From IMG/VR virus record IMGVR_UViG_3300006793_000097, positions 1-37,751 of that record: 37,751 nt of DNA, one strand, 5' to 3'. This document shows positions 465-36,965 of this stretch, piece after piece (position 1 is the stretch's first letter; each line of letters begins with the position of its first letter). Origin of the DNA: a virus. The notes under the pieces were generated by a model. It had not been told where the DNA came from, searched no databases, and saw only the letters and a list, made by a program, of their open reading frames with translations. A program made the translations under genes and the position numbers.

Positions 465-3400
465 GGTAATAGCAAAGACCTGACTTATTGTTAGTTGTCA
501 TTTTACATCTTTTACCATTTGATTTAATTTTACTACATTGTACTTTTTTATTGTCTTTTCTTTTTTCTACTTTTTGGTGAACAGTACAGTAACCACCTTC
601 TAACGCTTTATTTTTACACCTAGCACCACTTCTACTTATACCAGCACAGATACCATCTTCTTTTTTTATGTTTTCTTTTTCTACTTGTTTGTTTTCTTGC
701 TCTCTTATCTTGTCGTTTTCTATTTTCTTTTGCTTTCTTTTTTCTTTAGAAATTTCTTTTTTAATTATTTTAACTTCTTTCTTAGCATCTAACAAGGCTT
801 GTGGTTGTATATCAAAACTCCAGCTACTCCAACCCATAACCATAGCTATTCTTTCTAATGTCCTATGATCACTGTTCATGGCTTCTCTTACGTTTCTAAT
901 TTTACCATGTATTCTTGATAGTGGCACATTTGTAGCTGCTTCAATTACAGAAAAAGCTGCGTCATACATTGGGTTGTCTATACTAGTCATAGGCATATGC
1001 TTTATAACATCTCTATTGAACTCCCAAGACTGCAAACCTCCATACATTTTTCTAGCTTTAATACCAATTGGAACAGCTAAATTTAATGCTTCAATAACAG
1101 TGTACGCATGATCTGCTCTGTGTTTTTTCTCTTCTTGTTCAAAAAACTCTAGTACAGTATTTTTTATTGTAGCAAATATTGCGCCATACAAACCAGAACC
1201 TCTTAATATAGTATCTGCCATACCATTTGCTATTCTACCATATCTTTGTTCGTCTTTTTGTTTTTTCTTTTCATCTTCTTCTTCATCATCTCCAAACGTT
1301 ACGGCAAACAATGCTTGTTGTAAACTATAGAATATAGCATTTTGGATTGCCCCGTAATATAGTATTTTTGATATATGAGTTTTAGTATCACCTCTACCAT
1401 TTATTAAATCTTGTGCAGCTCGTTTCATCAACCTGTTATACTGCATAGGCGTGTTTTGAAAAGCAAATATTATTTTACCAAGAGGTGATGCTTGTAGCTG
1501 TGATATTTTATCCGGTCTAGCAGACTGTTGAGTTTCTTCTGCTATTTCTTGAAACTCTATAAAAGCTTTTTCCATAGCCTCTTGCTTAGACATACCTTGT
1601 TTTATGTACTTGTTTATTCTATTTCTAATAAACGTAGCTCCACCAAAAGCAATTGCAAAACTATCAGCTATTTGTGTAGGTAAAAAACCTTTTTGCAACA
1701 AAATACCTATTGCTGTTTTTACAGGGTTTCTAGAACCTTTTACGGCTTCCACTAATTCATTAGCATTTACGTCGTGAGACAAACCAGCTCTTCTTTGTTT
1801 TAAGAAAGGTGAGTTAAACAACATTAAAAAGTCAGACCAAAATTGTTTTTGATTAGCAAAAGCCATACCTGCTTTTAATGGGTTGTTATCAGACCAGTTT
1901 ATAAAGTTAACCGTAGATAAAGTTTGTAGTAACGCAGATCTAGCGTTGAAAAACATTGTTGTACCAATAGAACCATGTACCCAGTTCATAAACTTGTTCA
2001 TATTACTATCTCCGCCTCTTTTATTTGTACCGTGTTTCATTCGGTAAAACATATCTTCTAATGCAATTCTATGATTTAAACCATATTGAGATTCAATTTT
2101 ATTTAAATTCTTTTCACTAAATATTGCATTCCAATTGTCTTGAAACTCTTGCAATAAAACATCTCTAGTTTTGTTTGTAATTTCGTTAAGATTTGAAGAT
2201 AAAGTTTCTGCTAACCAACCTATATCATCTGGTGTTTGTAATCCACCTGCTGTTTCTGATATTTTACCATATTGATCAGCATATAACTTAACTGCAGAAT
2301 CACCCTCAACAAATTTAACTATAGCATTTTTATCTGATTGGCTTAAACCAGGTAATTCTATACCAGCTTTAGCATAGTTGTATATCATCACAGCTTGCTC
2401 TAAAGTAAAGTCAATTCCATCAATTTTATCTTTTAACGCTTTGGTTATTTTTTTGTTTGATTTTTTTAAAGCTTTTAAATCTATTGAAACAGATTGTTTT
2501 ATCGCATTTAAAGCTCTAACAGCTTTCGCGTAAGGAACTATTATAGTATCATTAAAAAACTTCATCGCGGCTTCACCTTTTTTACCTTTGCCTAAAAACG
2601 GATATATTAATCCTTTTAAATCTTCAGCCGATGGTGGTAAGAAAAACTTCCACCTACCTTTTCCTTTCCCTCTTTGTCTTCCTTTGGCTTTACTAAATAC
2701 TTTTTCTTTTTTTATACCAGTTGTGTCCTCTATTATTTTATTAAACTCAGCATCTAAGTCTTCATCTTTCCTGCTAAACTCCATGTTACCACCTCTTACT
2801 TGTACTGACTTTCCTTTTATATCTAGCTGATCCATAACATCTTTTACAGCGTCAACATTAGGTAAAGCATCGTCTACAAAATAAACATCATTATAACCTT
2901 CACCATACTTGTTTGCTATCCAAGCTCCTTTTGCCGCTCCAGTGCTATCACCTAGGCCAGTTATATTTTCAATAGGTATATTTATACCTTTTGATTTTAA
3001 CCACTCATGTATAGCTATTGCAGATGCTTGTGGCCTTGCTGTTAATACAAAAGTATTTTCTGGTCCAAACTTTTTTATTCTATTTCTAAGTTTTTGCATT
3101 AAAGGCCCTTCAACACCACCTCTTACGTTTACAAAGTCATTAAAGTTAAACTCGTAGCCATCTTTCATTAGTTGCGGACCTTTTATTGGCCATTGTTCAC
3201 TACTTATTTTTACCTCGTTTCCAGTCTGTGGATCTGTAGCTATAACAAAATTTTCTCCCTTAACAATTAATGTTTCATCAAAATCAAAAGCACTCATACC
3301 TCTTGAAGGTACTTTTTTGCTTTTCATCATTGAGTTTTTGCTTTTTATTAATCTAGGTAAAGAACCAAAACCTTGCTCTCTAACATGTCCTTTTGTTTCT

Positions 3401-6400
3401 TTAAAATGCTTAACTATTTCTATAGCAGTGCTAGATGTTTCTTCTATATTGTTTTCTTTAGGCGATATACTTTTTATAGGTTGCAGCATTACTGGGTCTA
3501 CATCAGGATCTTTAGCAAGATTCATTAACGTTACAGGGTCAAACATCCTACCACCATCAGTAGGTGATTTAGTTTGTAAACCAGCAGCTGTCATAGCATC
3601 GTCCCAAGCTGCGGGTATAACATTTACCTCGTAACCATCAAAAACAGAGTCTATGTCAAGCTCTCCATTTTTTTGATAAGACTCTACTATTCTTTTGTTT
3701 ATCTCTGCTTTTGATACAGAATGTTCAAACCTTAAAACATCTTTTATTGGAATTCCATTTTTATTAGCCCAAGCAATAATTTTACTTACGTTTTTTACAA
3801 TACCTCTTACTGGCGCAGATTTTCTAAGAGCAGAGTTCATACCAGCACCTAAAGTTGTCATTAAAGCGCCAAACTCTTTCATTGTCATTTCACCTTTCTG
3901 AACTTTTTTCCAAGCGTTGTCTAATATTGTTTTTGCTAAAACTCTGGCTTCTTGTGACTGCTCCTCTCTTTTAGCACCATCTCTATCTTTTATAACAGCT
4001 TCTGTAGTTTCTTTCAGTTGAGTTGTTTCAACAACAACCCATTCGCTTTTACCGTCCCAAACTTTAACAGTATTACCCTCTTGTTTTATCCATGTTTTAG
4101 TTTCTGGATTTTTTATTATTTTTGGATTATCAGTATTGTTCATTAAAGCAAGGTGGTCAGAAGCTGTCATGACCGATTTGCTACGGTTACCAGGTGTAAC
4201 CATTTCACCTTTTTTGTTTTTAACCAAAGCAGGGACACCATCAGCACTGTTAGTCGGGTTGTCTACAACATTTAAATCCCCGTCTTTTCGTGGTATACTT
4301 CTACCATCTCCAATTTTTCCTGAACCAGAAAAAGATAATTTAAAAGAATCTTGCATAACAGTTCTACCAGCGTCAACTTGTGAAACACCGTTTTCAACTA
4401 GTTCGCCAGGGGTGTCTTGCGCGACTTTTCTTAGTCGACTTACTCCAGAATAATTACCATCTTCATCTTTTACCGTGTAAACATCACTTATGTTGCCTTT
4501 AATACCAAGAGCTTTTTTAAGACTAAGTTCTACAGCTGCTTGATCTAACCTAGCAACAATAAACTGCTCAATGTTAATATCAATTGCTTCTGAAGCTTTT
4601 ATTTCCATAAACATTTCTACATCTGCCTTTAAAGCTTTAGCTTCTTTTTTAGCTTGCTTAGTTAATGTTTTTAAACCATAAGCATTTTGTATTATGTTGT
4701 TTGCTTTTTCAATAGTAATACCTTCTGGACTACCATAATTAGCTAACACCTCGTCAAGTATAAAATCAATTGGATCTTGCTTTGCTTTTTTACTGTAACT
4801 CATCTCTGATTTACCATCAGATATTTTAGCGGCAAGTTTTTCACTTAACAAACCGTTTTGTAATCCTTCAAGCTTTATGTTTTGAAGAGCTGATAATGCA
4901 GATAAGTTAAGTACTAGTTGTCTTATAGCGCCATCAGAAGACGTGCCAGGTCTAAAAGTACCGTCTGGATTAATACCAAAAGTGTCTAGCCAGTCGTTTT
5001 GATCTACAGAGCTCATCTTGTCTTGTCTAGCTTTACCTACACCACTACCACTCTGATCTTTGCCACCCATATCAATTCTACTACCTTTGTCGTAAAATTT
5101 ACCTAAAGCTCCTCTAGCTATACCAGTTGCCTTGCCAGTTCTATCTTCACCTTCTGGAAGCAAGTCAAACATTGCCGGGTTAAATGTACCGTCTTGATTT
5201 AAACTTTTACTAAGTATTAGTTCTTGAGCTCGAACTCTCATTGTATCGTCTAAGTCTTGGTTTGCTAGTATTCTAGCTGGTTCAATACCAAACTCTCCAG
5301 ATATAACCTCTAAAATACCATATAATGGTCCTAAAGGCGTCACATCACCTTCTTTTGTAGGTCTTTTTATTACGCCATCTTTTTCAACTTTAGCAACTTC
5401 ACCAACTAGTTTTTTAAAATCCTTATAAAACAATCCGTCAAAACTACCTTTGTAATTAGTTACAATATCTTTTATTTTTGCCTTACCATCTTGAGATATT
5501 CCTAAAACATTGTCAACAATTAATCCGGTTATAATTTCTTGAATAGCTTGTCTAGCGCCGGGCGACAAGTCCATGTTTTCTAAACGCTCCATATAAGCGT
5601 CGGACTCTGATTGTAATGTTTCACTTAAATCACCATAATCACCATAAACTTTGTCAATAGAAGTTATACCTTCATCTGGAGTAGCTTGGTTCATCTCAGC
5701 CAACACATCACCTTTAGCTCTAAATATAATTGATTTACCAGCTCCACCTGAAACACCCGTTAACCAACCAAATAAACTTTCATTTATAGCTGGATTAAAG
5801 TTAGCTCTTAATCTATTTCCTAATTTTTCTTTTACTTTTCTTACGTAATCTCTCATTGGTCCTGCTTCAAGATTTATACCTGCAGCAATTAAACCGTCTA
5901 ACCTAGGAGTGTTTTCAATAAAATTCATTGCTTCCCAAGAATCAATTGAATCTAAAAACTCTTGTTTAGTGTTGTATTTTTTAGATCCATCATCGTTTTG
6001 GACATACTGATCAAAATCTTTTTTAACTAACGGATCTTCTTTTAAAACTTGATCAACATTTTTAGAAAAACTTGTTTCAGCATCAGTTGGTGCTTTAGCT
6101 CCTTCAAACATTTTACCCTTAGCGCCATTAGCTATCATACGGGCTATAGCTTTGTTAGGTTTGTTTTTTCTAACAGAAACATCATAATCTCTCATGAAGT
6201 TTTTAATATCTTCTGCGGTGTCAAGGCTAATGTCATGGCCTAAATAGTTTTGTGCAAAACGTCTAAACACGCCTTTCATTTTTGTAAAAAAACTATCATT
6301 AAATTTTATTTGACCATTACGATACATTTCCATTGCAATAGCCATTGCCTCCTCACCTTGTTTTGTTGCCTTGTACCCACCAACTCTTTTGTTAAACAAG

Positions 6401-9400
6401 TCAATGTCTTTTTCAGACATAAAAACGCTTTTATCGTTTAGTATATCTATAACAGCACTACCTAGTTTTTTTCTTGCAGCAGGGTCTTGTTTTAACGTAT
6501 TGTAAAAAGCGCCATGAACAAACTCGTGTGACGCCGTGTTAAACATACCGTCTGTCAATGCTGTTTCTTTATTAACAAGCATTTCAATACGTTCTAAACC
6601 ACCATCTTTGTTAAATACCGGTCTCATACCACCATAGTTTTGAGACTCACGACTTATAAAATCTAACGCATTTCCAACATCACCAACTTGCGACTCTGCC
6701 ATTTTTAAAGCTTCTTTGGCTTCAGCTATTTCTTCTGGCGTAGAGTTTGGATCATTAATTATTTCTGAAGCAGCTTGTTTTAAACCCAAGTTATAACTAC
6801 CAATATTTTCAACCCCAGCTATAGAAGCGTCATATTCATCTTGAGATATGTTTTCGCCCATTTGGTTTGAATCAACCTCTCTAGTTACAAATGGCACTCC
6901 ACCTTGTTCAGCAACTTCTTTTTCATAAGCTTTCATAGCCTCCATCTCTTGTTTATAGTTGTCGTCAACTACATTTGAAGGGTACTTATCTAATACTTTT
7001 TGTTTCTTTTTATTGTTCTTATCAACTTTACTTCGCAGCGCGTCTATTTCCTCTGTTTTTTGTTCTGGCGTTAGATTTTGATCAGCCATAATGTTTTCAG
7101 CGCTTTGTCTAGCTTGGAGGTTTGCTTTTTCTATATTTATTAACTGTTTCTTTTCAGCTTTGCTTAAAAGATTTACACGTTTAATATCTTGCTCTATTAA
7201 TTCGTTTGCTTCATTAACAAGGTTAGCATGTTCTTCTTCTAGTCTAGCTCTTCTAACGGTAACACCTGCACCTTCTTGACCCATCATTGATGCAAGTGAC
7301 TTACTAACTTCGCTTATTCTATTAGCTATTTTACCAACCCTTTGATTATTGTCTTCACCTTGAAACGGTGCAACTAACTTAGGCGCTAGTCTTAAACCTT
7401 GTAAACCACTACTAATAACACCACCACTAATAAAAGATTCACCAACACCATCGTATATATTAACATCTTTGTTTCCAGATAAAATATCTGCAAGATTACT
7501 ACCCATACTAGCTAAACTCTCTGAAAAACCTTCTTCAAAAAATTCCGCACCAGTGCTTTTAATATTGTTAAAAGTAAATATATTTTTTCTTAAATAACTT
7601 TCGTAACCTAGTTTAGCAGCATCTTTACCTGCTTTTTTAGTAAGTGACTGAGCTGTTTTACCAACCGCACCAAGAGTAACTCTTTCAGATAATGCTTCCA
7701 TTGTACCACTAAAAGATGCGTTTGCAACCATAGTACCATAACTTAAATTTTGCCCATACAAACCACCAGTTCGCATGTACAAATCTTTTTCATCTTGTAA
7801 TTGTCTATACTTATTACCCGCTGCAGAAGCACCCATAACATACAAAGAAGCACCACCAGTAGCTGCCATTAATGCTAGGTTTGGTATTTGTTGTGCAAAT
7901 AGATTTGCTGACCACTCTACAGCATCTCCAAAACTACCTATTTCGCCAAACTCAACAGGTCTTCTAACTTTGTTGGTAATATTAAGTTCTTGCCACTTAT
8001 CTAGCTTATCACCAAATCTTGTCCAACGGCTTGATGTTGTTGTTATACTTTTACCAGCTATATTTCTTGTTTCTTTTTCATCTGCAAAAACCCAACCTAT
8101 AGGCGAGCTATTTCTATATGCACTTTGCATGTAGCCTTCTAAAGCTGGATCGTCAATAAGTTTTATTACTTCTTCTGGCATTTGAAAAACCATATCTAAA
8201 GAATCTCCAAGACCTTGTACTAAATCTATAGCTGCGTTACCTAGATTAGCAAACCAAGTGGTAACAACACCTCTGTTTCTGCCAATTTCACCAGCTATAA
8301 CTCTAAGCTCATTTTCTTCTAAACTACCTTTTTCAAGCTTTTGAAATAACTTGTTTGATAGCTTTATGTATTTTTTTCCTTCATCAGATAGAAAATTATA
8401 TCTAGCACCATTTTTTCTATATTCAAATATTTTTTTATCTAGCTCTTCTTGTGCTTTTTTAATCTCTTCATCACTATTATACTCTTTGTTTTGAGCATTT
8501 TCAATTTCTTTTTCAATGTCTGTTTCATCAAAATACTTTACTAATTCTTTTAGTTCTTTGTCTATGCTTGTAAGATCTTCATTTACTATTTGAAACTTTT
8601 GTAAAAGATCTTCGTTTTCTTTAATTTTTTTATCACGTCTTTTATTAGCAACGCCGGTAAGCTCTCTTTCTTCATCACTTTCATAAAAAGCAACTCCACC
8701 TTTGTCTTTTTTTAGTTTTTCAGCTATTCTATCTTCAAACTTACTTTGCTTTTTATCTTCTTTAAATTGTTCTAATACAAAATCACTTTGCTTTTTTAAC
8801 TTTTCTTCATCGCCATTAATTTCTTCTTCAGTTCTTTGCAAAACATCTTTAAATTTTTCGCTATTTAATATTTTTTGTTTTACTAACGCTTTATCTTCTT
8901 CGTTTGTTACACTATCATATTCTATTTTTTCATTTGAATTTTCTTCAAAATACTTTTGCAATGCTTGATTTTGCGTGTATGTTTGTTCAAGTTTAGTATA
9001 AAATTGAGCGTCATCTGTCTTGTTACTAATATTATTTTTCTCTAAAAGATCTTGTTTTCTTTTAACTTCAGCAAAAAATTCTAAATCTTCTTGAGAGGTT
9101 GGAATATTATTTGTACCGCCAGCTGTAGATTTAATCATCTTGGCACTACTTTTATTTTTGTTATGTTGATTTACAGCATCAATTATTTCTTGATTAGTGG
9201 CACCTGGCATATCCCAAGCCTCTCTAACTTTATCAAAATAATTGTTAGCGTTATCATACTTGTTGTTAACGTCTTTAGTTTCTTCTGCAGATATTTTTCT
9301 AGTTTCGTCAGCTATTTCATCTAAATAACCCTCAGGAGTGTCTTCGCGTTGTGGAGCGGGTGGTGTAAAGCCAGGCCTTGGAGGCACGTTTATTGTTGGT

Positions 9401-9600
9401 GAGGCTTTTTCTTTTTCTTCTTTTTCAATATTAGATATACTATCGGAAGCAAATTCATCAGAAGAATACTCAGGTACTGGTTGTTCTACAACTTGTGACT
9501 CTGGATATTTTTTTTGATAGTTTACTATAAACTTTTCAATATCTTTTTCAGGATAACCCTGATTTAACATGTAAGCTACATACTCCTTTAGTTCACTCAT
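457..9600 (-). CDS. Giant polyvalent virion/ejection protein (3047 aa) with zincin, HAD and zinc-knuckle domains
   Basis: Probably an internal virion protein injected with the genome. Visible parts in order: a short helical N-terminus; a long charged, coiled-coil-rich region (about 60-440); hydrophobic Gly/Ala-rich segments near 560-590; a zincin-like site HEFVH at about 1025-1029 with a downstream EEAMAIAMEM helix that could supply the third metal ligand; a long region without clear homology; a HAD-type phosphatase domain at about 2102-2290 (FDFDETL, VLTARP, then FVDDALPNVD); a helical, partly hydrophobic region ending near 2900; a Lys/Glu-rich coiled coil; and two zinc knuckles, C2985-x9-C2995-x9-C3005-x2-H3008 and C3022-x9-C3032-x10-C3043-x2-H3046. 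This mosaic fits the phage polyvalent-protein class. The start is 4 bases after the stop of the previous gene. No DxDGD-type RNA polymerase motif was seen. The individual activities are predicted from motifs only. Confidence 0.85.
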   Translation of the reverse strand: MSELKEYVAYMLNQGYPEKDIEKFIVNYQKKYPESQVVEQPVPEYSSDEFASDSISNIEKEEKEKASPTINVPPRPGFTPPAPQREDTPEGYLDEIADETRKISAEETKDVNNKYDNANNYFDKVREAWDMPGATNQEIIDAVNQHNKNKSSAKMIKSTAGGTNNIPTSQEDLEFFAEVKRKQDLLEKNNISNKTDDAQFYTKLEQTYTQNQALQKYFEENSNEKIEYDSVTNEEDKALVKQKILNSEKFKDVLQRTEEEINGDEEKLKKQSDFVLEQFKEDKKQSKFEDRIAEKLKKDKGGVAFYESDEERELTGVANKRRDKKIKENEDLLQKFQIVNEDLTSIDKELKELVKYFDETDIEKEIENAQNKEYNSDEEIKKAQEELDKKIFEYRKNGARYNFLSDEGKKYIKLSNKLFQKLEKGSLEENELRVIAGEIGRNRGVVTTWFANLGNAAIDLVQGLGDSLDMVFQMPEEVIKLIDDPALEGYMQSAYRNSSPIGWVFADEKETRNIAGKSITTTSSRWTRFGDKLDKWQELNITNKVRRPVEFGEIGSFGDAVEWSANLFAQQIPNLALMAATGGASLYVMGASAAGNKYRQLQDEKDLYMRTGGLYGQNLSYGTMVANASFSGTMEALSERVTLGAVGKTAQSLTKKAGKDAAKLGYESYLRKNIFTFNNIKSTGAEFFEEGFSESLASMGSNLADILSGNKDVNIYDGVGESFISGGVISSGLQGLRLAPKLVAPFQGEDNNQRVGKIANRISEVSKSLASMMGQEGAGVTVRRARLEEEHANLVNEANELIEQDIKRVNLLSKAEKKQLINIEKANLQARQSAENIMADQNLTPEQKTEEIDALRSKVDKNNKKKQKVLDKYPSNVVDDNYKQEMEAMKAYEKEVAEQGGVPFVTREVDSNQMGENISQDEYDASIAGVENIGSYNLGLKQAASEIINDPNSTPEEIAEAKEALKMAESQVGDVGNALDFISRESQNYGGMRPVFNKDGGLERIEMLVNKETALTDGMFNTASHEFVHGAFYNTLKQDPAARKKLGSAVIDILNDKSVFMSEKDIDLFNKRVGGYKATKQGEEAMAIAMEMYRNGQIKFNDSFFTKMKGVFRRFAQNYLGHDISLDTAEDIKNFMRDYDVSVRKNKPNKAIARMIANGAKGKMFEGAKAPTDAETSFSKNVDQVLKEDPLVKKDFDQYVQNDDGSKKYNTKQEFLDSIDSWEAMNFIENTPRLDGLIAAGINLEAGPMRDYVRKVKEKLGNRLRANFNPAINESLFGWLTGVSGGAGKSIIFRAKGDVLAEMNQATPDEGITSIDKVYGDYGDLSETLQSESDAYMERLENMDLSPGARQAIQEIITGLIVDNVLGISQDGKAKIKDIVTNYKGSFDGLFYKDFKKLVGEVAKVEKDGVIKRPTKEGDVTPLGPLYGILEVISGEFGIEPARILANQDLDDTMRVRAQELILSKSLNQDGTFNPAMFDLLPEGEDRTGKATGIARGALGKFYDKGSRIDMGGKDQSGSGVGKARQDKMSSVDQNDWLDTFGINPDGTFRPGTSSDGAIRQLVLNLSALSALQNIKLEGLQNGLLSEKLAAKISDGKSEMSYSKKAKQDPIDFILDEVLANYGSPEGITIEKANNIIQNAYGLKTLTKQAKKEAKALKADVEMFMEIKASEAIDINIEQFIVARLDQAAVELSLKKALGIKGNISDVYTVKDEDGNYSGVSRLRKVAQDTPGELVENGVSQVDAGRTVMQDSFKLSFSGSGKIGDGRSIPRKDGDLNVVDNPTNSADGVPALVKNKKGEMVTPGNRSKSVMTASDHLALMNNTDNPKIIKNPETKTWIKQEGNTVKVWDGKSEWVVVETTQLKETTEAVIKDRDGAKREEQSQEARVLAKTILDNAWKKVQKGEMTMKEFGALMTTLGAGMNSALRKSAPVRGIVKNVSKIIAWANKNGIPIKDVLRFEHSVSKAEINKRIVESYQKNGELDIDSVFDGYEVNVIPAAWDDAMTAAGLQTKSPTDGGRMFDPVTLMNLAKDPDVDPVMLQPIKSISPKENNIEETSSTAIEIVKHFKETKGHVREQGFGSLPRLIKSKNSMMKSKKVPSRGMSAFDFDETLIVKGENFVIATDPQTGNEVKISSEQWPIKGPQLMKDGYEFNFNDFVNVRGGVEGPLMQKLRNRIKKFGPENTFVLTARPQASAIAIHEWLKSKGINIPIENITGLGDSTGAAKGAWIANKYGEGYNDVYFVDDALPNVDAVKDVMDQLDIKGKSVQVRGGNMEFSRKDEDLDAEFNKIIEDTTGIKKEKVFSKAKGRQRGKGKGRWKFFLPPSAEDLKGLIYPFLGKGKKGEAAMKFFNDTIIVPYAKAVRALNAIKQSVSIDLKALKKSNKKITKALKDKIDGIDFTLEQAVMIYNYAKAGIELPGLSQSDKNAIVKFVEGDSAVKLYADQYGKISETAGGLQTPDDIGWLAETLSSNLNEITNKTRDVLLQEFQDNWNAIFSEKNLNKIESQYGLNHRIALEDMFYRMKHGTNKRGGDSNMNKFMNWVHGSIGTTMFFNARSALLQTLSTVNFINWSDNNPLKAGMAFANQKQFWSDFLMLFNSPFLKQRRAGLSHDVNANELVEAVKGSRNPVKTAIGILLQKGFLPTQIADSFAIAFGGATFIRNRINKYIKQGMSKQEAMEKAFIEFQEIAEETQQSARPDKISQLQASPLGKIIFAFQNTPMQYNRLMKRAAQDLINGRGDTKTHISKILYYGAIQNAIFYSLQQALFAVTFGDDEEEDEKKKQKDEQRYGRIANGMADTILRGSGLYGAIFATIKNTVLEFFEQEEKKHRADHAYTVIEALNLAVPIGIKARKMYGGLQSWEFNRDVIKHMPMTSIDNPMYDAAFSVIEAATNVPLSRIHGKIRNVREAMNSDHRTLERIAMVMGWSSWSFDIQPQALLDAKKEVKIIKKEISKEKRKQKKIENDKIREQENKQVEKENIKKEDGICAGISRSGARCKNKALEGGYCTVHQKVEKRKDNKKVQCSKIKSNGKRCKMTTNNKSGLCYYHD

Positions 9601-11915: not shown

Positions 11916-12278
11916 TTATTTACTGCTTTCAAACACGTCAGCACCAATACTAAATATTTCTGCCTCTGATGTAGAGCTATTTTTAAACTTTACATCAGCG
12001 TAATAACCTAGTACGCTGCTAAGGTTAGCCTTGTTGTCTTTGCTAAAAAACACAAAATTAGTTATACCGTTGTAAGTACCAGGTAAACTTGTGTCAACAG
12101 TTAGTATTGGTGAGTTTGAAGTTGCGTTTTGTATTCTTGTTATAGTACCTATTTCAGTAACTGAATAACTATTTACTGTAAAGCCTGCGGTAGTTGTAGT
12201 TGGAACAGTATAAGCAGTGTCGCCAACTTGGCAGGATACGTTTAAAGGCTTATTAAATGTTAGTGTTATTGTTGGCAT
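11916..12278 (-). CDS. Small beta-rich virion structural protein
   Basis: A 120-residue protein of alternating Thr/Val/Ile/Ser-rich strands with no signal peptide or membrane segment, consistent with an all-beta fold. The C-terminal part (FFSKDNKANLSSVLGYYADV, then a polar tail ending VFESSK) is like small virion proteins commonly found beside tail genes in marine phages; that likeness is from memory, not a search. Its ATG overlaps the stop of the 2538-residue tail gene by one base (TAATG), so translation is probably coupled and the product may be made in proportion to the tail protein. The likely role is a tail or fibre accessory, but this is not proven. Confidence 0.65.
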   Translation of the reverse strand: MPTITLTFNKPLNVSCQVGDTAYTVPTTTTAGFTVNSYSVTEIGTITRIQNATSNSPILTVDTSLPGTYNGITNFVFFSKDNKANLSSVLGYYADVKFKNSSTSEAEIFSIGADVFESSK

Positions 12279-15200
12279 TATTCTATATGTATAAAGTTAT
12301 CTAAATAAATTTCTACAGTATCGTCCTGTGGTATTGAAGTTATTTCAAACAACCCTCTAATTTTAACAGATGTTTGATCCTTGTAAGCTTCAACATGTCT
12401 AAGCTCAACACCTAACGCTGTGGGCTTTTCAAATATTATAGAAAGACCTGCTGCTAAACCAGCTTGTAAGTTAGGTGATATACCTAAAGCTGTTGAGCTT
12501 GTGATACTATTAACGGTATGCGTAGTAGATCCAAGTACAAATGTCATGCCAACTCCTACGCCAACGGTTGATGTTACTCTTAAAGCGCTGGCATTTGGAA
12601 GGTTAGTACCTGCTCCAGCAGCATCAATTTTAACTGTTGAACCTGTTGAAAAATCACTAGCGTTAGGTTGTCTACTACCACCAGTACCATCTATACTTAA
12701 AACTCCATCTCCTTGAGGAGTAACTGTTATTTCAAAAGCCTTTATATTACCATCATTTAAGCTAAAGTTTAAAGTTCTACCATCTGTAACAGCCACACTA
12801 CCGCTTGATGTAACAAATCTTTTGTCTTTTATTGCTAACACAGTAGTGTTGTGTGGTACGCCAATACCAGTAATAACCATCCCAGCTTGTATACCATCAA
12901 CTTGCTCGTCAAGTGTTATTTCTGTAGAAGTTGCACCAGCAGTACCACCGGTTGTGGTTATAGTAGTTGGCTCTGTTGTGACTCCAGTTGGTCTAGTAAC
13001 TACTATGCTTACCATACCGGTGTATCCACCACTGAAAGTTTTAGTCGTAAAAGTTAATGTAGAAACACCCTCTTGTATTATACTAGCTTCTCCGTGAGCG
13101 TCAGGCACTCCAGTCGCTAAGCTTGTAGTTGGTGATCCAGCACCAGCTGCAATTATATCAAATCTTCTTTTAGCACCGTTGTTTATTGGTATTGTTATAT
13201 TGTGTCTATTCATACCCTCAGCAGTTATAGTTTGTGTGCCAGAGTTTACAGAACTTGTTTGAAAAACATTATTTGTAAAATTATAATAACCATCGCTAGT
13301 AGCAATATTATTATTGCTCAAACCTTGTTGTAAAGAAACTTGAAGTGTGTATTGTGCTCCAACCGTACCAGACACCGTAACAGGCATTGTGCTTGGGGTA
13401 GTAGGTGCTGTAGGTGAAAAGCTTATTGAACTTAATTGATTACTAGGAATTACAGGCGCCTGCACAAGTTTAAAATGAATATTAAACTGATGAAACAGCC
13501 TACATAAATTAGAAGGATCTGGATTTAAAGGAGCATTACCAGGCGGAGTATATTCAAGTGTGTAAGAAAAAGTAGTAAGTCTACCATTTGCGTCGTAAGC
13601 ATGGTTGCCTTCTAACGAGTTGTAATAAGGCGTGTAGTCATATCCAGTTTGGTTTACGTTTTGTTGTGATCTAGCAAGACCCTCGTAATAGTAACCACTG
13701 TTTGCTGTAAATGTTAACTGTACAACTTGACTCATCATTCCATCAACTAAATCACTACTTTGATACCTTTGTTTAGTTGTTCCAGATGAAGAACCACTAT
13801 CTTCTTGAGTTCTAGTTACTGTAGCAGCGTGAGGTGTCATTGTTGCTATTGTTACCACGTGGTTAGTAAAAAATGGATAATGTACTCTAGCACATAAGCT
13901 TCTGTTAGCTTGGTTTCTTTTTGCACCTAAATCATCGTCAATATCTATATAGTAAATAGCAGCTGTAGTAGGTACAGTGAAAGATGGCATTGTTATAGCA
14001 ACGTTAACTGTGTTTGCAGGATCACCCGCCACACCGTTATTTGTAAATGCAACTTGAGTTATATTTGCATCAACATTACCACCTTGAAACACTCCAGACG
14101 AAGTTTCTGTTGCTCCACCAATTTTAAAATCAAGAGCATCTAAGTCGTATCCAGTGTAAGAACCTCCTACAATGTTAGATATTGTTAAGTTAACAACTTG
14201 CTGCGCAACAGTCGTACCAACAGTGTAAGTAATTGCTTTACTAGTACAAGTCCAAGCTGTTTGTAAACTTCCATCCCAAGCACCACCACTACCATCATCT
14301 CCTTGATAAGTTGAAGAAACGTTGTCAGCCCAAGTAATAGGTACTTGCCCAACATTTGGGTGACTACCACCACCTCCACCAGGGTTACTATGTGAAAAAG
14401 ATGCTTGACCTAAGCCTTGTACAGAAAACTCTGTTTCGTCTAAATTATCTAGATTTGTTTGATCTCCAGCAATTAACCCAAACCATTTACCCTCTTTTTC
14501 TTTAAACTCTACTATGTTACCAGTTTGTTTGTTTGTAATTATAGACTCTACATACCAACCAGTTTTTGCGTCAAGATTATAATACTCACCGTCATTAAAA
14601 GCAACAGTACTTGAACCACCAGCATTGTCGTATGCAGTTGCGTTTGAAGTTGTAAACTGAGTTATTCTTGCTTGACTACCCTCATAATTTAGCGCGCCAA
14701 AGCTTTTTACTGATTCTGGTTTATCATTAAATACAACTGTAACATCAGACTCTGTGTGTACACCATAAAAATTGTTTCTAGTTTCATTACTGTGATGTAA
14801 ATACAACTGTCCATTTTTAAAAGTGTAATACTCATTATTTAAACTTAAACCTTGTTCTGGTTTAAAAGATTTAAAACTTACCCAACCTTTAGCTTTTTCA
14901 CCATAAGATATAGTTGTAAACTCTGGTTGTAATTGTCTTTTGTTATATCTTTTACCTATAGTTATATTGTATTCTTTTTTCTTTGCATCGTAACTACCAA
15001 TTGCAATATCAGCATAATCTCTTAATAGATCGGTAAAATAATCTTTCATACCTAAATCAGATATTGATCTAACACCTTCCCTGCTCATCGCCAACACTTG
15101 ACCTCTTGTTATATCTGTAAAGTATAACTGTTGTGGTGTTGACACAAAAGACTCTGGGTTTGTTGCTATACCCCAATTACCAGAATAAGCTGTTGCTTGG

Positions 15201-18200
15201 CCTAGCACCATTTTGTTTGACGTTACATTTGCTTTTCCGTCAGCGTTGAATAATGCATCTTTATTTGTTAAAACTTTTAAAACTTTATCTTCACAAAGAG
15301 TTATTAAGTCTGTATTTCTAGTGTGAAGTTTTTGTATACTACCATATACAGGATTTAAATCTTTTGTAATATTTTCCGCAGCTATAAATTGATTAGTGTT
15401 GTTAACACCAGCGTTTGAATTATATATACCAGAAAATATTAAACCGTGCTTTCTTCTTTCTTCTCTCACAGGTTCTGCTAAAACTGTAGATGCTTTAACA
15501 CCATTAGCAAATCTAGACTCGTTAAAACTATCCCTAATTCTGTCAGTTTCTACACCGTTACCATATGAAAAGCAATTTGCCCAGTCTAGCATGTGGTATT
15601 GTTTAAATAGTCTTTGACTACCAACAGAGGTAGGACCACCGTGTAAAACTATAGCTGTACCACTAGTAACTTGACCATTAACTTTGCTACCAACCCAATA
15701 ATTTCTTCTTTTTATAAAAGTTATAGTCTGCATGTCGGATATAGTGGTGTTAGATGGTAAAGTTGGTGTAAAGTTTACCGTCTGACCACTCCATGAACTT
15801 ACTGTGTGTGTTGTAGGTGTACCGCTAGAATTTTTAGTTACAAAAGTACTGCCTATAGGTATATACTGTTCGTTTGTTTCGTGATTTAAAGTTATAGGTT
15901 GCAAACCACTAGCTTGATAATATATATCTAAATCAACAGATTCTCTTGGTTCAACTTCCCACACAGCAGGGTTTTCTGTAAAGTTATCTTTAGTTTCGTT
16001 ACTGATAAAAGGTTCTATTATTTCAATAACATCAAAATCATCAGCATCATGCTTTAATGCTCTAACCGGTATTGGTGCACCATTTATTGTACCAGTCATA
16101 GGGTTGTAACCACTTGGACCACTACCAATACCAGGCTTAACACCTATAGTCCATCTTTGTCGAACACACTTGTCTCTATATAATTTTTTTGCAGCTTTGT
16201 TTCCGGTTATACCATCGTCTTTAAAATTTCTTATACCATAAGCACCTATAAATTTAGTGGCATTACTTCTGTACTCACTTTTACCATGTGGTGTGTTTTG
16301 GTAATCATAATCATATGTTTCGTAAATAATTTTATCTGGATCATTTCTAAATCTAAACTTAGTTCCACTTTGCACTAGCTTTTCCATAAACTGCCAAGCC
16401 GCAGCCCTTACCCCAGTGCTATGCTCTTGCAGTCTATGTTTGTACGGTGGATTCCATGGGCTAGTACTTTTGTTTTCCATACCAGACCAAGAAATATCCA
16501 TAAGACAAGTAACACCATTGTTATTCCATATACCCCTAGATATTGCAGCACCCTGAGAGTTGTTTACACTTCTACTAGTACCATTTGATTTTTTAGAACT
16601 AGTGAAGTTATTATTGTTATTGTACCAAACTTGCTCAGCGTCAGGCCTCATAAACAGTGATAGTTCATAACCATCGTTTGTGTTACCATTAACCCTATCT
16701 CCAGGTATGTGATCTTCATGACCACTCCATTGGTAAGCAGTTGCACAGTCAATAAAAAATGATTTTAAACCCTTTATACCTTCCCAAAACTCTTTAGCTT
16801 TTGGATTTATACCGTTAAAAGTTACAGCATCGTTACCTAAAGCGTGTACAGGGTCGTTATGAATTGCTGAACTAGTTATGTCAAAACGCTTACCATTTGT
16901 TCCACCCCATTGGTAAGCCGCGGCAGGACTACCAGTATGATGATGTGAATATTCTGTTGGGTGACTTTTACCACTTAAACTACCACCCTCACTTTTTAAA
17001 GCTTGATAGTGATCAGTTGTTATTGGATATGAACCACCACCTTTGTAACCATTGTTGTTTAAATATCTTAATGACCAAGAGTTTAATACTTTGTAATTTT
17101 GATCTTCACCATCTCCAGCAGCCAAAACGTATTTAGCCAAACCTTCATCTCTGTGTATCTTTACAAAAAACCTTCCATCAAATTCAGGTTTGTTTTCAAC
17201 TTTGTGCTCTACAAGCCTTAATATTAATCCCGCTGGAGGTTGTATACCAGCTGTGCCAGTGTCTGAGTCTGTAAAGTCCATGTCATTACCAAAAGCACCA
17301 TTAATTTTAATAATATATTTATTACCATCGTTTCTTATGTTCATAACATCATACTCTTTAGAAGAGTTTTCTGTAGATATAAGGGTTATAAACATTTTAT
17401 CTGGTGTCTTTATCAATAAATCATCACCAAACGCACCATCAAAAACACCTGTGTCAATCCATATTTCAGTACCACCGTTTACAGGATAACCACTACCAGA
17501 TCCATTACCAAAATTACTAGTGTTACCAGTTGTAATAGTGCTTGTTGTACCACAAGGGCAATCACCTATAACACTTACAACTGTTTTTATAAAGTCAGGA
17601 GCTTCGTTTTCTATAGCTAATACTTTATATCTAGCTTTTTCATAAACAGGTTGGTTTGTTCTATGAGACTTTTTTAGTATTAGATAATCATCTTCCATAA
17701 GCTTGTTTCTTTCTGAAGAAGGAAACGAAAGCCATATGTTACCATCGTTAGCAGTGTAAAATCTATCCATCGCCATGTTGTAATATTCTGATGACGTTTC
17801 TTTTACGTAAAAAGAAAAATGCGTTGCCCAGCTAGGTGGATCACTCTGTAGCCTTGTAAACATTCTGTTTCTTTTTGTTGAAAAGTTTTTGCTAATAGTA
17901 ATTGAAGCATTTTTAGATGTAAGCACTGGTGTTTCTCTTCCATACTTATCACTAAATACTACACCAACCTGATACGTTCTCATGGTTTTAACTGATGGTG
18001 CAGCGTGTAACACTCCAACATTATCTATGTCTTGAGAGTGGAGCTCTAAGAGCAGTTCAGGGTCATCTACATTATAGTTTTGCACGTAGTTACCATATAT
18101 AATTCTATTAACACTTATTTCTTGCGCTATAGCAGATCTTGGAACATTGTCAAAAGGTCTTAGTAGTTGATTAGATGGAACAACCGCGTGGATAACATCA

Positions 18201-19894
18201 GAGGTCACATTGTACTCTCCTCTATCATATGCGTTGTTTTGAAAATCAGTCCAATAAGGATGTCCATCTTTACTTGTTAAAGATTTAACAGTGTAAACGA
18301 CTGGGCTATTGTCTTCTTTATAAAGTATATCTATACCAACAACGTCGTTTGATATTAACTCTTCTGGAAAGTAATTTTTTAACTTTAAACTTTTTATGGT
18401 ATTTCTCATACCAAGGTTATAACCCTTTTTAGGTAAATAATCGTAACCACCAGGTATAAACGCTATCTCAGAAAAAGGTGCAAAACAAGAATACTCACCA
18501 TCTTGGTATTTATATCTGTAAGAAAACCTTACAAATTTAAACTCAAAAAGAGGCTCACTGTCAACTAATCTAATGTAATAGTCAACAACAGCCTCTTCTA
18601 TATCTCCAGCTATAGATAATATTCTAATAGTAAAACCAGCAGTGTTTAAATTATTTGGATTATTAACTAAAGACTCTGTAACAACACCTCTTACAACGGC
18701 CTCTGACTCCGCAAAAGTAGCATTTGAAAGTCCAGTGTCAGCTGTGAACAATATAATATCACCAACTCTGTAATCTATTGGTGTATCAAAATCTGGAGAT
18801 ATTTCGTCTCCAGCATCAACATCTGTAAAGTCAATAGAAGCACTTGTATACCTTAAGTTTGCATCTCCAGCATTATTTATTCTAGGATCTTTTTGATCAG
18901 ACATTTCTAGGGTTAATGGCTGCGTAGGGGATTTTTTAATTACTGTTATATTTTTTTCCTCTACGTATACGGCTTTTTTTCCAGTTCTATCAGTTACAAT
19001 TTCTAAGAAACCGTTTCCATCTCTATCAGCAACTAATCTTGTGTGAAAGTCATGTGTGTCGCCCTCAAATATATTTGTAGTAGGAGCGTTTGTTGGTGAA
19101 GGATTAAAACCAGCTATACCACCACCTTGCAAGTACTCCTCACCACCAGTACCAGCTATAGATCTTTTTATGTTTATTTTTTTAGGTTCGTTAATACCAT
19201 CTGTCCAAAATAAAAAGTCATCTAAAACGTTGATACCAGTTATTATAGAATTTCTGTTAAAATTTAAAATTCTAGGTGCTACAAAAAATACGTCGTCGTT
19301 ACCACTAACCGAAACAGCGCTACTCAATGTTATTGTCCAACGACTATTACCTGTATCGTACGATATATCAGCAACAGTAACCTCGTCATTTATATTAACG
19401 CTAGAATGTGTAAAAGTCATTCCAGCTCTAACACCAGTTTTGTTTATCGTAGAACTACCACCGTCAGGTATTTTTATTGTTACCGAATTGCTGACAGTTG
19501 TAGATGCTTTTGTAGAAACTCCATATATATCGACAAAAACATACTTAGAACTTCTTTTTAAAGTATCGTATTCTAGTATATAATCTCTTTGTATTGGTAA
19601 AGTGGCACCAGTAGTTGTGTTAATACCAGCAGAAACCATATAATATATTTTATCTGTTTCTGGCAAACCAACTGATCCTATGCATGTTGAAGTTGTTGGC
19701 ACACTATATATACCGTTTTCTATAGTGTTTTTTATAGTGTTACCCAGTAGTGTCTGAGCAGAACCAACGTTAGAGTCGTCTGAAGTAGATATTTGTATAT
19801 TTGTTGCATCTCTATATTGGCCATTTGGAATTAACCTTTCGTCAAGGTCTTTATTCATTTTGGCCTGAGAGAAGTTACGTTTTAACTCCGGCAT
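12278..19894 (-). CDS. Giant tail muzzle/nozzle-like protein (2538 aa)
   Basis: Very probably the large tail-tube tip protein of a podovirus. The N-terminus contains NKDLDERLIPNGQYRDATNI (about 14-33), the type of opening found in muzzle proteins of crAss-like and related phages and, distantly, T7 gp12 nozzles. The region about 1500-1750 has propeller-like repeats (for example near QLYFTDITRGQVLAMSREGV at about 1600). The C-terminal third is Thr/Ser/Gly/Asn-rich beta structure with recurring modules of the form GM-x-ITG...TTV, suggesting Ig-like or fibre domains. Similar modules also occur near residues 100-200. It follows the two ring-type proteins by only 3 bases and shares one base with the next gene. 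Its length is well above T7 gp12 (about 790 residues), the excess probably being host-recognition insertions. No frameshift is seen. Confidence 0.8.
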   Translation of the reverse strand: MPELKRNFSQAKMNKDLDERLIPNGQYRDATNIQISTSDDSNVGSAQTLLGNTIKNTIENGIYSVPTTSTCIGSVGLPETDKIYYMVSAGINTTTGATLPIQRDYILEYDTLKRSSKYVFVDIYGVSTKASTTVSNSVTIKIPDGGSSTINKTGVRAGMTFTHSSVNINDEVTVADISYDTGNSRWTITLSSAVSVSGNDDVFFVAPRILNFNRNSIITGINVLDDFLFWTDGINEPKKINIKRSIAGTGGEEYLQGGGIAGFNPSPTNAPTTNIFEGDTHDFHTRLVADRDGNGFLEIVTDRTGKKAVYVEEKNITVIKKSPTQPLTLEMSDQKDPRINNAGDANLRYTSASIDFTDVDAGDEISPDFDTPIDYRVGDIILFTADTGLSNATFAESEAVVRGVVTESLVNNPNNLNTAGFTIRILSIAGDIEEAVVDYYIRLVDSEPLFEFKFVRFSYRYKYQDGEYSCFAPFSEIAFIPGGYDYLPKKGYNLGMRNTIKSLKLKNYFPEELISNDVVGIDILYKEDNSPVVYTVKSLTSKDGHPYWTDFQNNAYDRGEYNVTSDVIHAVVPSNQLLRPFDNVPRSAIAQEISVNRIIYGNYVQNYNVDDPELLLELHSQDIDNVGVLHAAPSVKTMRTYQVGVVFSDKYGRETPVLTSKNASITISKNFSTKRNRMFTRLQSDPPSWATHFSFYVKETSSEYYNMAMDRFYTANDGNIWLSFPSSERNKLMEDDYLILKKSHRTNQPVYEKARYKVLAIENEAPDFIKTVVSVIGDCPCGTTSTITTGNTSNFGNGSGSGYPVNGGTEIWIDTGVFDGAFGDDLLIKTPDKMFITLISTENSSKEYDVMNIRNDGNKYIIKINGAFGNDMDFTDSDTGTAGIQPPAGLILRLVEHKVENKPEFDGRFFVKIHRDEGLAKYVLAAGDGEDQNYKVLNSWSLRYLNNNGYKGGGSYPITTDHYQALKSEGGSLSGKSHPTEYSHHHTGSPAAAYQWGGTNGKRFDITSSAIHNDPVHALGNDAVTFNGINPKAKEFWEGIKGLKSFFIDCATAYQWSGHEDHIPGDRVNGNTNDGYELSLFMRPDAEQVWYNNNNNFTSSKKSNGTSRSVNNSQGAAISRGIWNNNGVTCLMDISWSGMENKSTSPWNPPYKHRLQEHSTGVRAAAWQFMEKLVQSGTKFRFRNDPDKIIYETYDYDYQNTPHGKSEYRSNATKFIGAYGIRNFKDDGITGNKAAKKLYRDKCVRQRWTIGVKPGIGSGPSGYNPMTGTINGAPIPVRALKHDADDFDVIEIIEPFISNETKDNFTENPAVWEVEPRESVDLDIYYQASGLQPITLNHETNEQYIPIGSTFVTKNSSGTPTTHTVSSWSGQTVNFTPTLPSNTTISDMQTITFIKRRNYWVGSKVNGQVTSGTAIVLHGGPTSVGSQRLFKQYHMLDWANCFSYGNGVETDRIRDSFNESRFANGVKASTVLAEPVREERRKHGLIFSGIYNSNAGVNNTNQFIAAENITKDLNPVYGSIQKLHTRNTDLITLCEDKVLKVLTNKDALFNADGKANVTSNKMVLGQATAYSGNWGIATNPESFVSTPQQLYFTDITRGQVLAMSREGVRSISDLGMKDYFTDLLRDYADIAIGSYDAKKKEYNITIGKRYNKRQLQPEFTTISYGEKAKGWVSFKSFKPEQGLSLNNEYYTFKNGQLYLHHSNETRNNFYGVHTESDVTVVFNDKPESVKSFGALNYEGSQARITQFTTSNATAYDNAGGSSTVAFNDGEYYNLDAKTGWYVESIITNKQTGNIVEFKEKEGKWFGLIAGDQTNLDNLDETEFSVQGLGQASFSHSNPGGGGGSHPNVGQVPITWADNVSSTYQGDDGSGGAWDGSLQTAWTCTSKAITYTVGTTVAQQVVNLTISNIVGGSYTGYDLDALDFKIGGATETSSGVFQGGNVDANITQVAFTNNGVAGDPANTVNVAITMPSFTVPTTAAIYYIDIDDDLGAKRNQANRSLCARVHYPFFTNHVVTIATMTPHAATVTRTQEDSGSSSGTTKQRYQSSDLVDGMMSQVVQLTFTANSGYYYEGLARSQQNVNQTGYDYTPYYNSLEGNHAYDANGRLTTFSYTLEYTPPGNAPLNPDPSNLCRLFHQFNIHFKLVQAPVIPSNQLSSISFSPTAPTTPSTMPVTVSGTVGAQYTLQVSLQQGLSNNNIATSDGYYNFTNNVFQTSSVNSGTQTITAEGMNRHNITIPINNGAKRRFDIIAAGAGSPTTSLATGVPDAHGEASIIQEGVSTLTFTTKTFSGGYTGMVSIVVTRPTGVTTEPTTITTTGGTAGATSTEITLDEQVDGIQAGMVITGIGVPHNTTVLAIKDKRFVTSSGSVAVTDGRTLNFSLNDGNIKAFEITVTPQGDGVLSIDGTGGSRQPNASDFSTGSTVKIDAAGAGTNLPNASALRVTSTVGVGVGMTFVLGSTTHTVNSITSSTALGISPNLQAGLAAGLSIIFEKPTALGVELRHVEAYKDQTSVKIRGLFEITSIPQDDTVEIYLDNFIHIE

Positions 19895-36326: not shown

Positions 36327-36356
36327 TACGAATACAAATAGATAATAATAATAAAA
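36327..36356 (+). repeat. Repeated AT leader, copy 1
   Basis: This 30-base segment, containing ACAAATAGATAATAATAATA, differs at one base from 37357-37386. Each copy lies shortly before a small plus-strand gene, 27 bases before the ATG at 36384 in this case. A more diverged version can be seen before the gene at 37020. It is probably a shared promoter or leader element. Confidence 0.6.
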
Positions 36357-36383: not shown

Positions 36384-36605
36384 ATGAAATTAAATAGTAA
36401 AAGATTTGTGATAAGAAAATCACTAATAGGTAAAAATGCAGTAATAACAGTCAACTTCAAAAATGGTAAAGTTGCTAAGTATAATCACGATAAAGTGTAT
36501 GAAGTAATGAAAGATAAACTAGAAAGTATGAATTGCTTTATAAAGTACAAAAGTTATACTGCTTCTAACAATGTTCCACTCGTTGCAAGAGAAATCTGCG
36601 AGTAG
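36384..36605 (+). CDS. Small basic protein, first of the plus-strand genes
   Basis: A 73-residue, Lys-rich protein (MKLNSKRFVIRKSLIGKNAV, then ITVNFKNGKVAKYNHDKVYE) with an N-terminal beta part and a helix near 40-52. No family is recognised. The ATG is preceded by a purely A/T leader of AATAAATAAAT type. It is the first gene to the right of the divergent region and may be expressed early. Codon use is A-rich like its neighbours. A short length with no homologue makes the call moderate. Confidence 0.55.
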   Translation: MKLNSKRFVIRKSLIGKNAVITVNFKNGKVAKYNHDKVYEVMKDKLESMNCFIKYKSYTASNNVPLVAREICE

Positions 36606-36663
36606 TAATACAAAGTCGAGTTAGTTCACTATTCCCTCGTATAATCAAATATGAATAGTAATA

Positions 36664-36706
36664 AGTAGTCATGGTGCCGAGGTGTGTTCGATTCACACGC
36701 TACTAC
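36664..36706 (+). ncRNA. tRNA T-arm-like hairpin with outer stem
   Basis: GTGTG (36682-36686), the loop TTCGATT (36687-36693) and CACAC (36694-36698) match the T-arm of a tRNA, including the G-C closing pair and a TTCRA loop. Outside it, AGTAGT (36664-36669) can pair with ACTACT (36701-36706). No D-arm or anticodon arm in the right place was found, so this is not a normal tRNA gene. It may be a tRNA remnant, a tRNA-like RNA structure or the tRNA-derived half of an attachment site. Confidence 0.35.
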
Positions 36707-36719
36707 TAAAATAAATAAT

Positions 36720-36965
36720 ATGACTAGAGAAGAATTAAAACACTTGTGGTTTAATTTACCAAGAGTAAAACCACTAAAAGAAATAAAAGCAATAGTAATA
36801 ACAAGACATGGTGACAATCATTACTCATGTGAGCGACAAACTCAAACACAAGAATATTGGGCAAGTAGTAGTAGTAACTTCAGTACGTATGAAGAAGCTT
36901 TAGACAGAGCGAATACTATGCTTGACAGTGAAATCCACGAAGGTTATGAGTTAATTATAAACTAA
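36720..36965 (+). CDS. Small protein of unknown function
   Basis: An 81-residue protein starting MTREELKHLWFNLPRVKPLK. A beta part (IKAIVITRHGDNHYSCERQT), a Ser-rich link and a helix YEEALDRANTMLDSEIHE follow. The general layout, strands and then an EALDxA helix, resembles that of the protein at 37553 (VERALDYAMQWCHE), so the two may be distantly related. The ATG at 36720 is chosen because its leader AAATAAATAAT matches the neighbours; an upstream GTG at 36684 would start inside the T-arm-like hairpin. The function is unknown. Confidence 0.6.
   Translation: MTREELKHLWFNLPRVKPLKEIKAIVITRHGDNHYSCERQTQTQEYWASSSSNFSTYEEALDRANTMLDSEIHEGYELIIN

Follow-up and report, generated by a model that had tools for sequence, protein, structure and literature searches.

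Anticodon-less mini-tRNAs behind phage genes, candidate punctuation marks of phage messenger RNA

Why would a phage carry the T-arm of a tRNA between two small genes? The question arises in a stretch of 37,751 nucleotides, hereafter the window, which is the 37.7-kb record of an uncultivated phage (G000) with PHROG matches to terminase, portal, GroEL and GroES. Among other terminases, the closest to its own is encoded by an uncultivated podovirus genome (64.7%), ahead of those of Flavobacterium phages (44.4%), Cellulophaga phages (about 37–38%) and a Tenacibaculum phage (32.4%). Two very large ORFs occupy the minus strand at 457–9600 (3047 aa) and 12278–19894 (2538 aa). The tRNA-like element, which we call a mini-tRNA, stands behind a small gene that we call gene X, in the following layout.

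36327–36346, plus strand: TACGA-N9-GATAAT, a motif resembling phage promoters, 5′ of gene X
36384–36605, plus strand: gene X (73 aa), with the mini-tRNA behind it
36617–36659, plus strand: H-type pseudoknot between gene X and the mini-tRNA
36664–36706, plus strand: mini-tRNA, 43 nt, 58 nt behind the gene X stop with the pseudoknot in between
36664–36669 with 36699–36704, plus strand: acceptor-like outer stem of 6 bp, AGTAGT with GCTACT, innermost pair U.G
36670–36675, plus strand: D-loop-like CAUGGU, its GG at 36673–36674
36676–36681, plus strand: linker, 6 nt
36682–36698, plus strand: T-arm, with a T-stem of 5 bp (GTGTG 36682–36686 with CACAC 36694–36698)
36687–36693, plus strand: T-loop TTCGATT (UUCGAUU)
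36705 and 36706, plus strand: A73-like A and C74-like C, followed by TAAAA
36720–36965, plus strand: downstream ORF (81 aa), its ATG 13 nt behind the mini-tRNA, with no promoter motif in the gap

An earlier note on this DNA had described a T-arm with an extra outer stem, without the rest of a tRNA. Inspection of the sequence confirmed its coordinates for both parts, and the remark on the rest of the tRNA held in part: there is no D-stem and no anticodon arm, but a D-loop-like GG and an A-C end are present. The acceptor-like stem and the T-stem are 12 nt apart. A canonical tRNA is thereby set aside, despite a T-arm with the conserved T-loop, and ARAGORN called no tRNA in the window. The acceptor-like stem ends at 6 bp with A.A at the seventh position, where a pair forms in 7 of 24 aligned rows. 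Rfam returned no family at gathering score in the window, and its sole match at E ≤ 5 within 36560–36760 was CRISPR-DR6 at 36716–36740 (E 1.2). Folding energy is ordinary (−10.3 kcal/mol, z −0.16; 74 of 200 shuffles as good), and the minimum-energy fold at the site differs from the T-arm. The hairpin followed by a T run that marks an intrinsic terminator was also looked for and rejected, as ACTAAAATAAATAATATG stands 3′ of the hairpin.

To follow the element across phages, we gathered relatives through gene X, which has relatives encoded at 53 loci, and through a degenerate pattern (14 loci). A 22-mer of the mini-tRNA led to four other IMG/VR contigs, all with an identical 42-nt core, versus 72–83% identity in the aligned gene DNA. 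In a MAFFT alignment of 25 sequences, 24 of them distinct (A1), 93.4% of the 288 stem cells are paired, compared with 68.6% after shuffling and at most 59.4% in slid registers, and covariation reaches 0.677 versus 0.165 in shuffles. Ten of the 12 mini-tRNA pairs show changes on both sides, and both strands of both stems covary. RNAalifold predicted 11 of the stem pairs from A1, the outermost missing, with 10 changed on both sides. No row of A1 departs from the GG at 36673–36674, from GUUCGAUUC or from the C that follows the stem, though this constancy is partly built in, as patterns holding these letters supplied some of the rows. A covariance model of the mini-tRNA (R1) gave 42 matches at E < 1e-9 over 68 sources, of which 25 are the A1 rows that built the model and match it by construction; its best E was ≤1.6e-6 in 30 of 40 whole records, themselves chosen because they hold loci. 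Locus counts overstate genomes, because four locus pairs (L002/L025, L003/L021, L006/L020 and L015/L019) share a contig each. The earlier note had made its proposal depend on the hairpin being conserved in related phages, and the proposal survives on this point, because a tRNA-like RNA element is kept there, with 42 identical nucleotides and covarying stems. On the strength of these alignments, the window mini-tRNA is kept by natural selection.

The space between gene X and the mini-tRNA is also structured. In the window, stem 1 of the pseudoknot pairs 36617–36620 with 36636–36639, and stem 2 pairs 36628–36634 with 36653–36659. Across 12 sequences, 132 of 132 cells are paired (slid registers reach up to 43.2%), 20 cells are changed on both sides versus 5.3 in shuffles, and covariation is 0.479 versus 0.183; for two of the five measures, pairs changed and pair types, 56 and 51 of 500 shuffles reached the observed value. 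Other relatives have different modules in its place, as judged by eye and uncounted. One, upstream of the mini-tRNA in L023 and L026–L031, is a hairpin with the constant loop TGAAGTGCTGATTAG on stems of varied sequence, again by eye, with one loop change in L032. Another, in L035, L038–L041, L043, L046 and L047, has the form GGTGACT..CCGAACC..AAACTGG.. and looks like a second pseudoknot.

Gene X itself has no Pfam match. Its predicted fold is confident (pLDDT 92) and has no PDB match at E ≤ 0.001, for which reason a recognisable RNA-binding protein was rejected. Behind gene X at 68 loci, the mini-tRNA is present in 44 by a strict rule, including five with a longer linker (L018, L035, L036, L043 and L049; 41–84 nt from acceptor to T-stem versus 10–13), and R1 finds it at L016, L017, L024 and L062. 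Eight of the 68 slots are lost at contig ends. In 12 relatives with an intact slot neither the strict rule nor R1 finds a mini-tRNA; 11 of these are 56–72% identical to gene X, and some carriers are equally distant, down to 62%. The 41 proteins encoded downstream of gene-X mini-tRNAs fall into 15 clusters while the mini-tRNA stays behind gene X, and a cis-regulator of one particular downstream gene was rejected on this count. The mini-tRNA belongs to the upstream gene. The promoter-like motif occurs three times on the plus strand of the window and never on the minus strand (expected 0.15 and 0.10 under a second-order Markov model), and it is missing within 80 nt behind the mini-tRNA in 22 of 23 loci, L007 being the exception.

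Related phages also encode real tRNAs, and these share a feature with the mini-tRNA. In all 26 canonical tRNAs inspected, a C follows N73, and in 25 the rest of CCA is missing. The same C74 in the mini-tRNA suggests one 3′-end pathway for both. Further tRNA-like genes were seen among gene-X relatives. In L059 (7874–7955) and L035 (7925–8005), tmRNA-like genes of 81–82 nt match both Rfam tmRNA ends and are too short to hold an mRNA-like domain; by inspection, both have G3.U70 and A73. Longer tRNA-like elements with an ..AACTAG/CTAGTT.. acceptor and a T-arm lie at about 5.7–9.8 kb in L027, L034–L038, L049–L052, L054 and L059, and ARAGORN misses them.

The same architecture is found in many other viral contigs. 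Two loose patterns with fixed D-loop-like and T-loop letters, whose conservation is thus by construction, found at least 220 sites in new loci. Among the sites listed, 148 can form both stems, the T-stem with 5 bp and the acceptor stem with 5 bp or more (6 or more in 141), whereas seven shifted controls gave 0–5 such sites; removal of near-identical copies left 133, and 132 have full flanks. At E ≤ 0.01, R1 picked 111 copies in 83 of the loose-pattern loci, a set selected after the stems had been counted. In their alignment (A5), 95.5% of cells are paired and 586 cells are changed on both sides versus 168 in shuffles, although A5 was fitted to R1 and two of its five measures lie within shuffles (11 versus 11.0 pairs; 41 versus 44.9 pair types). 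A C stands 12 or 13 nt behind the T-loop in 118 of the 132 copies listed (13 in a tRNA) and within 10–14 nt in 126, the latter count being less striking because a chance C is frequent when three places near the stem end are tested. CCA is encoded in none of these 126 C-bearing copies. The first stem base is T in 43 copies listed, A in 42, G in 42 and C in 5, which amounts to no G1 preference, and the base before the stem is in most cases A (75 of 132) rather than U. ARAGORN called no tRNA or tmRNA in 49 of 60 such loci, so most copies lie outside tRNA clusters; at L227 (11638–11709), an ARAGORN or annotation tRNA call overlaps a mini-tRNA.

Placement of these copies follows the genes. Among the copies listed, 117 of 133 distinct ones are intergenic; the remaining 16 lie inside ORF calls and were left out of the strand counts. 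For the 117, the upstream gene is on the same strand in 95 and on the opposite strand in 15, and the downstream gene in 83 and 23, respectively. In 50 of 110 distinct copies listed, the start overlaps the stop codon of a same-strand ORF of at least 50 aa or follows it by no more than 10 nt; the same holds for 22 of 550 random positions, and the opposite strand gives 8 of 110. Some contigs carry genes and elements in series (four copies in L290, four in L227, three in L161), and several elements of multi-copy contigs lie inside short ORF calls (L227, L291, L228, L297 and L283). On the minus strand of L117 (943–1771), six mini-tRNAs follow one another at intervals of about 150 nt, and AACA-like runs abound in the sequence there. 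Tenacibaculum phage Gundel_1 (L095) carries a mini-tRNA-like element with a longer insert near 791–845 and a Pistol ribozyme at 2564–2642 (65.6 bits).

Isolated phages carry the architecture as well. For VanLee and Sitrop we used a rule chosen after the first examples (T-stem 5–6 bp, acceptor 5–7 bp, GG not demanded) and took shuffled gaps as its control. Within a 32-gene leftward block of Gordonia phage VanLee, 15 of the 17 gaps of at least 50 nt hold an element, as do 0 of 340 shuffled gaps, and 14 of the 15 elements begin 2–31 nt behind a stop. Streptomyces phage Sitrop has elements in 8 of 13 gaps (0 of 260 shuffled), and in neither phage does a CDS or the opposite strand contain one. Cafasso has three in gaps; Syn5 and S-TIP28 have one each, before the major capsid gene. 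Short-query BLASTs returned mostly chance-level rows, and six intergenic or other rows were inspected: the architecture is present in Syn5, PV4-TP1 and VanLee, Littlefix and Trixie show a T-arm with no acceptor stem under the stem rule used, and the XM05 row is an ordinary tRNA region. His2 virus has a T-arm alone (R1 E 0.056). At E ≤ 0.05, R1 matches none of VanLee, Cafasso and Sitrop, whose T-stems are mostly 6 bp, and the claim for these three is therefore one of shared architecture, short of homology. Taken together, the elements have a conserved structure, are biased towards the gene strand, stand directly behind genes and recur along operons.

Several annotations in the isolates touch on these elements. 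The annotated tRNA-Arg of Sitrop (L318, 11494–11576) and a tRNA call in VanLee (L317, 16227–16317) each overlap a mini-tRNA and a CDS, and both may be mis-calls because of the CDS overlap. In VanLee (1752–3368) and PSonyx (L316, 1267–2431), both element-carrying phages, a Ro-like RNA-binding protein and an RtcB RNA ligase are annotated; a link between RtcB and the elements was rejected, as the enzyme turned up in 2 of 28 records, both isolates. S-TIP28 has a Glutamine-II riboswitch match (L312, 993–1045); a small ORF follows it, and the capsid-gene element lies downstream.

Known RNAs offer partial precedents. The mascRNA of animals is cut by RNase P and tRNase Z, which sets the 3′ end of MALAT1; like the mini-tRNAs it is a short hairpin of tRNA-like form that lies 3′ in a longer RNA, but it is single-copy, whereas the mini-tRNAs are phage-borne, intergenic and repeated. 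Its Rfam family, mascRNA-menRNA (RF01684), scored 23.0 and 22.5 bits on two VanLee elements (E 0.09 and 0.12; gathering 42.5), was outscored at one of them by Plastid-ycf2 (E 0.027), and gave no match at E ≤ 5 around the window mini-tRNA (36560–36760). In mitochondria, tRNAs punctuate transcripts: there too, tRNA-like units stand directly behind stop codons, between genes of one transcript, but those are real tRNAs, whereas the phage elements have neither D-stem nor anticodon arm. The tRNA-like domain of tmRNA (RF00023) likewise joins a T-arm to an acceptor with no D-stem and no anticodon arm, yet the window mini-tRNA has no G3.U70 by inspection and no RF00023 match. In plant-virus tRNA-like structures, a pseudoknot builds the acceptor stem, whereas the window acceptor is a plain helix and its pseudoknot a separate 5′ module. 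What the two share (PMC5723415) is tRNA mimicry in a viral RNA with a pseudoknot nearby. No Rfam family reaches threshold on the window mini-tRNA or the similar elements searched, and we found no report of such phage elements in open-licence literature. Processing signals that resemble tRNA are known, and an anticodon-less, repeated, intergenic phage version of them looks new.

We propose that the mini-tRNA is a punctuation mark within phage mRNA, where host RNase P and/or tRNase Z would make cuts that part the neighbouring messages, a reading to which we give a probability of roughly 0.55. The stacked acceptor and T-arm, the UUCGAUU T-loop with the D-loop-like GG and the A73-C74-like end would supply the features that tRNA-maturation enzymes recognise. 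According to PMC11143913, RNase P cleaves acceptor/T-arm hairpins in vitro and recognises them by the T-loop, by a length of 12 bp and by R73-C74-C75, and it is on this ground that cutting by the two host enzymes is proposed. Those synthetic substrates are built from the same parts as the phage elements and differ little from them in their 12-bp length but carry CCA, whereas the phage elements encode C only; PMC5723415 reports that E. coli RNase P requires CCA on such small substrates. We infer that host RNase P, on the 5′ side, and/or tRNase Z, on the 3′ side, would excise the mini-tRNA behind the upstream stop codon and separate upstream from downstream mRNA. In the window, the 3′ end of gene X mRNA would then carry the pseudoknot, and the probable benefit is separate 3′ ends and stability for adjacent phage mRNAs. 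In favour of punctuation are the placement of copies directly behind genes on the gene strand, the window copy itself standing 58 nt behind the stop, together with the covarying stems, the repetition along operons, the constancy behind gene X while the downstream proteins change, the scarcity of promoter motifs between mini-tRNA and next gene, and the C74 shared with phage tRNAs. Against it are the missing CCA, the lack of a G1 preference, the A rather than U before the stem, the failure of R1 to match VanLee, Cafasso or Sitrop, the imperfect outermost pair in the window, the ordinary folding energy, the 12 gene-X relatives that have no mini-tRNA and the promoter motif directly behind the mini-tRNA of L007, because of which separation cannot always be needed.

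Other functions must be weighed against punctuation. The excised mini-tRNA could serve as a small RNA in its own right, a sponge or decoy that occupies host factors with affinity for the acceptor and T-arm, be they tRNA-targeting defences or toxins, the CCA enzyme, EF-Tu or RNase P. The retained features of the tRNA elbow and the several copies in some phages (six in L117) agree with a decoy, which could stand anywhere, however, whereas the copies are tied to gene ends and the gene strand, and the gene-X clade has mostly one per record. A processing signal fits better because copies stand behind many unrelated genes, and we regard the decoy as improbable, though the strongest of the alternatives. 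Slightly less probable still is a 3′-UTR stabiliser that is never excised on its 5′ side, where tRNase Z or stalled exonucleases make the 3′ end and the upstream mRNA is shielded by a tRNA-like terminus, to which CCA may be added. This would suit the A-C end shared with phage tRNAs and an upstream gene that is nearer than the downstream one (medians of 12 and 38 nt among the copies listed that were measured), but RNase P should still act if the mini-tRNA folds like a tRNA, and elements also occur between genes of one unit. Quite unlikely is a role in cis on the downstream gene, be it in translation or in regulation: an ATG ORF does begin within 50 nt in 62 of 110 copies listed, and 13 nt away in the window, but the downstream proteins are unrelated (besides the 41 in 15 clusters, 83 make 71 clusters among the copies listed), and in 17 of 117 copies listed the upstream gene is on the same strand and the downstream gene on the opposite one.

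Readings that place the function in DNA fare worse. In integrons, attC marks mobile gene cassettes, and a comparable recombination site would account for the exchange of genes behind gene X next to the mini-tRNA and for gene-element units in series; yet the T-loop letters and the A-C end are tRNA-like, the copies of one genome differ in stem sequence, and among related records, many of them fragments, tyrosine integrase PF00589 was found in 0 of 40 and resolvase-type recombinase PF00239 in 0 of 30, leaving such a site very improbable. The earlier note had suggested that the element, which does resemble a tRNA 3′ end, might be the phage-borne half of an attachment site located there. That proposal fails on the same searches, on covariation of both stem strands, which an attP core need not show, and on the lack of a host tRNA match: the 22-mer of T-arm and acceptor end has one match in genome_contigs, a Reinekea contig, in whose 8-kb locus ARAGORN found no tRNA. 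Integration is thus unsupported by the records and contigs searched, and we give it next to no weight; the more distant relatives phi18:3 and phi38:1 have recombinases by annotation. A search of 185 bacterial genomes of Reinekea's class gave no match at E ≤ 1e-4 and, having no positive control, is uninformative. Equally negligible is a decaying remnant of a tRNA gene, which would leave tRNA-like parts alone in phages whose relatives carry real tRNAs and, in one case, a tmRNA: two-sided changes in 10 of the 12 pairs and the 42 nt identical in diverged genomes argue for present selection.

A broader version of the punctuation reading, which we hold to be about an even bet, is that anticodon-less mini-tRNAs of about 42–50 nt are an overlooked and very widespread punctuation code of many unrelated phages with Bacteroidota, cyanobacterial and actinobacterial hosts, and perhaps of archaeal viruses. 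With such marks in the role otherwise taken by RNase III sites or terminators, host tRNA-maturation enzymes would dice their polycistronic RNA; the elements would have spread or arisen repeatedly, and tRNA finders would miss or mis-call them. If so, some dubious phage tRNA calls, such as the tRNA-Arg of Sitrop, would be explained, and the mini-tRNAs would be natural substrates of minimal size for both RNase P and tRNase Z as well as a compact, portable processing signal. It would also reveal the way in which mRNA ends arise between the genes of such phages. Many phages would divide their operons with a pathway borrowed from the host, to which it is essential, and bacteria would thus have a counterpart to the tRNA punctuation of mitochondria.
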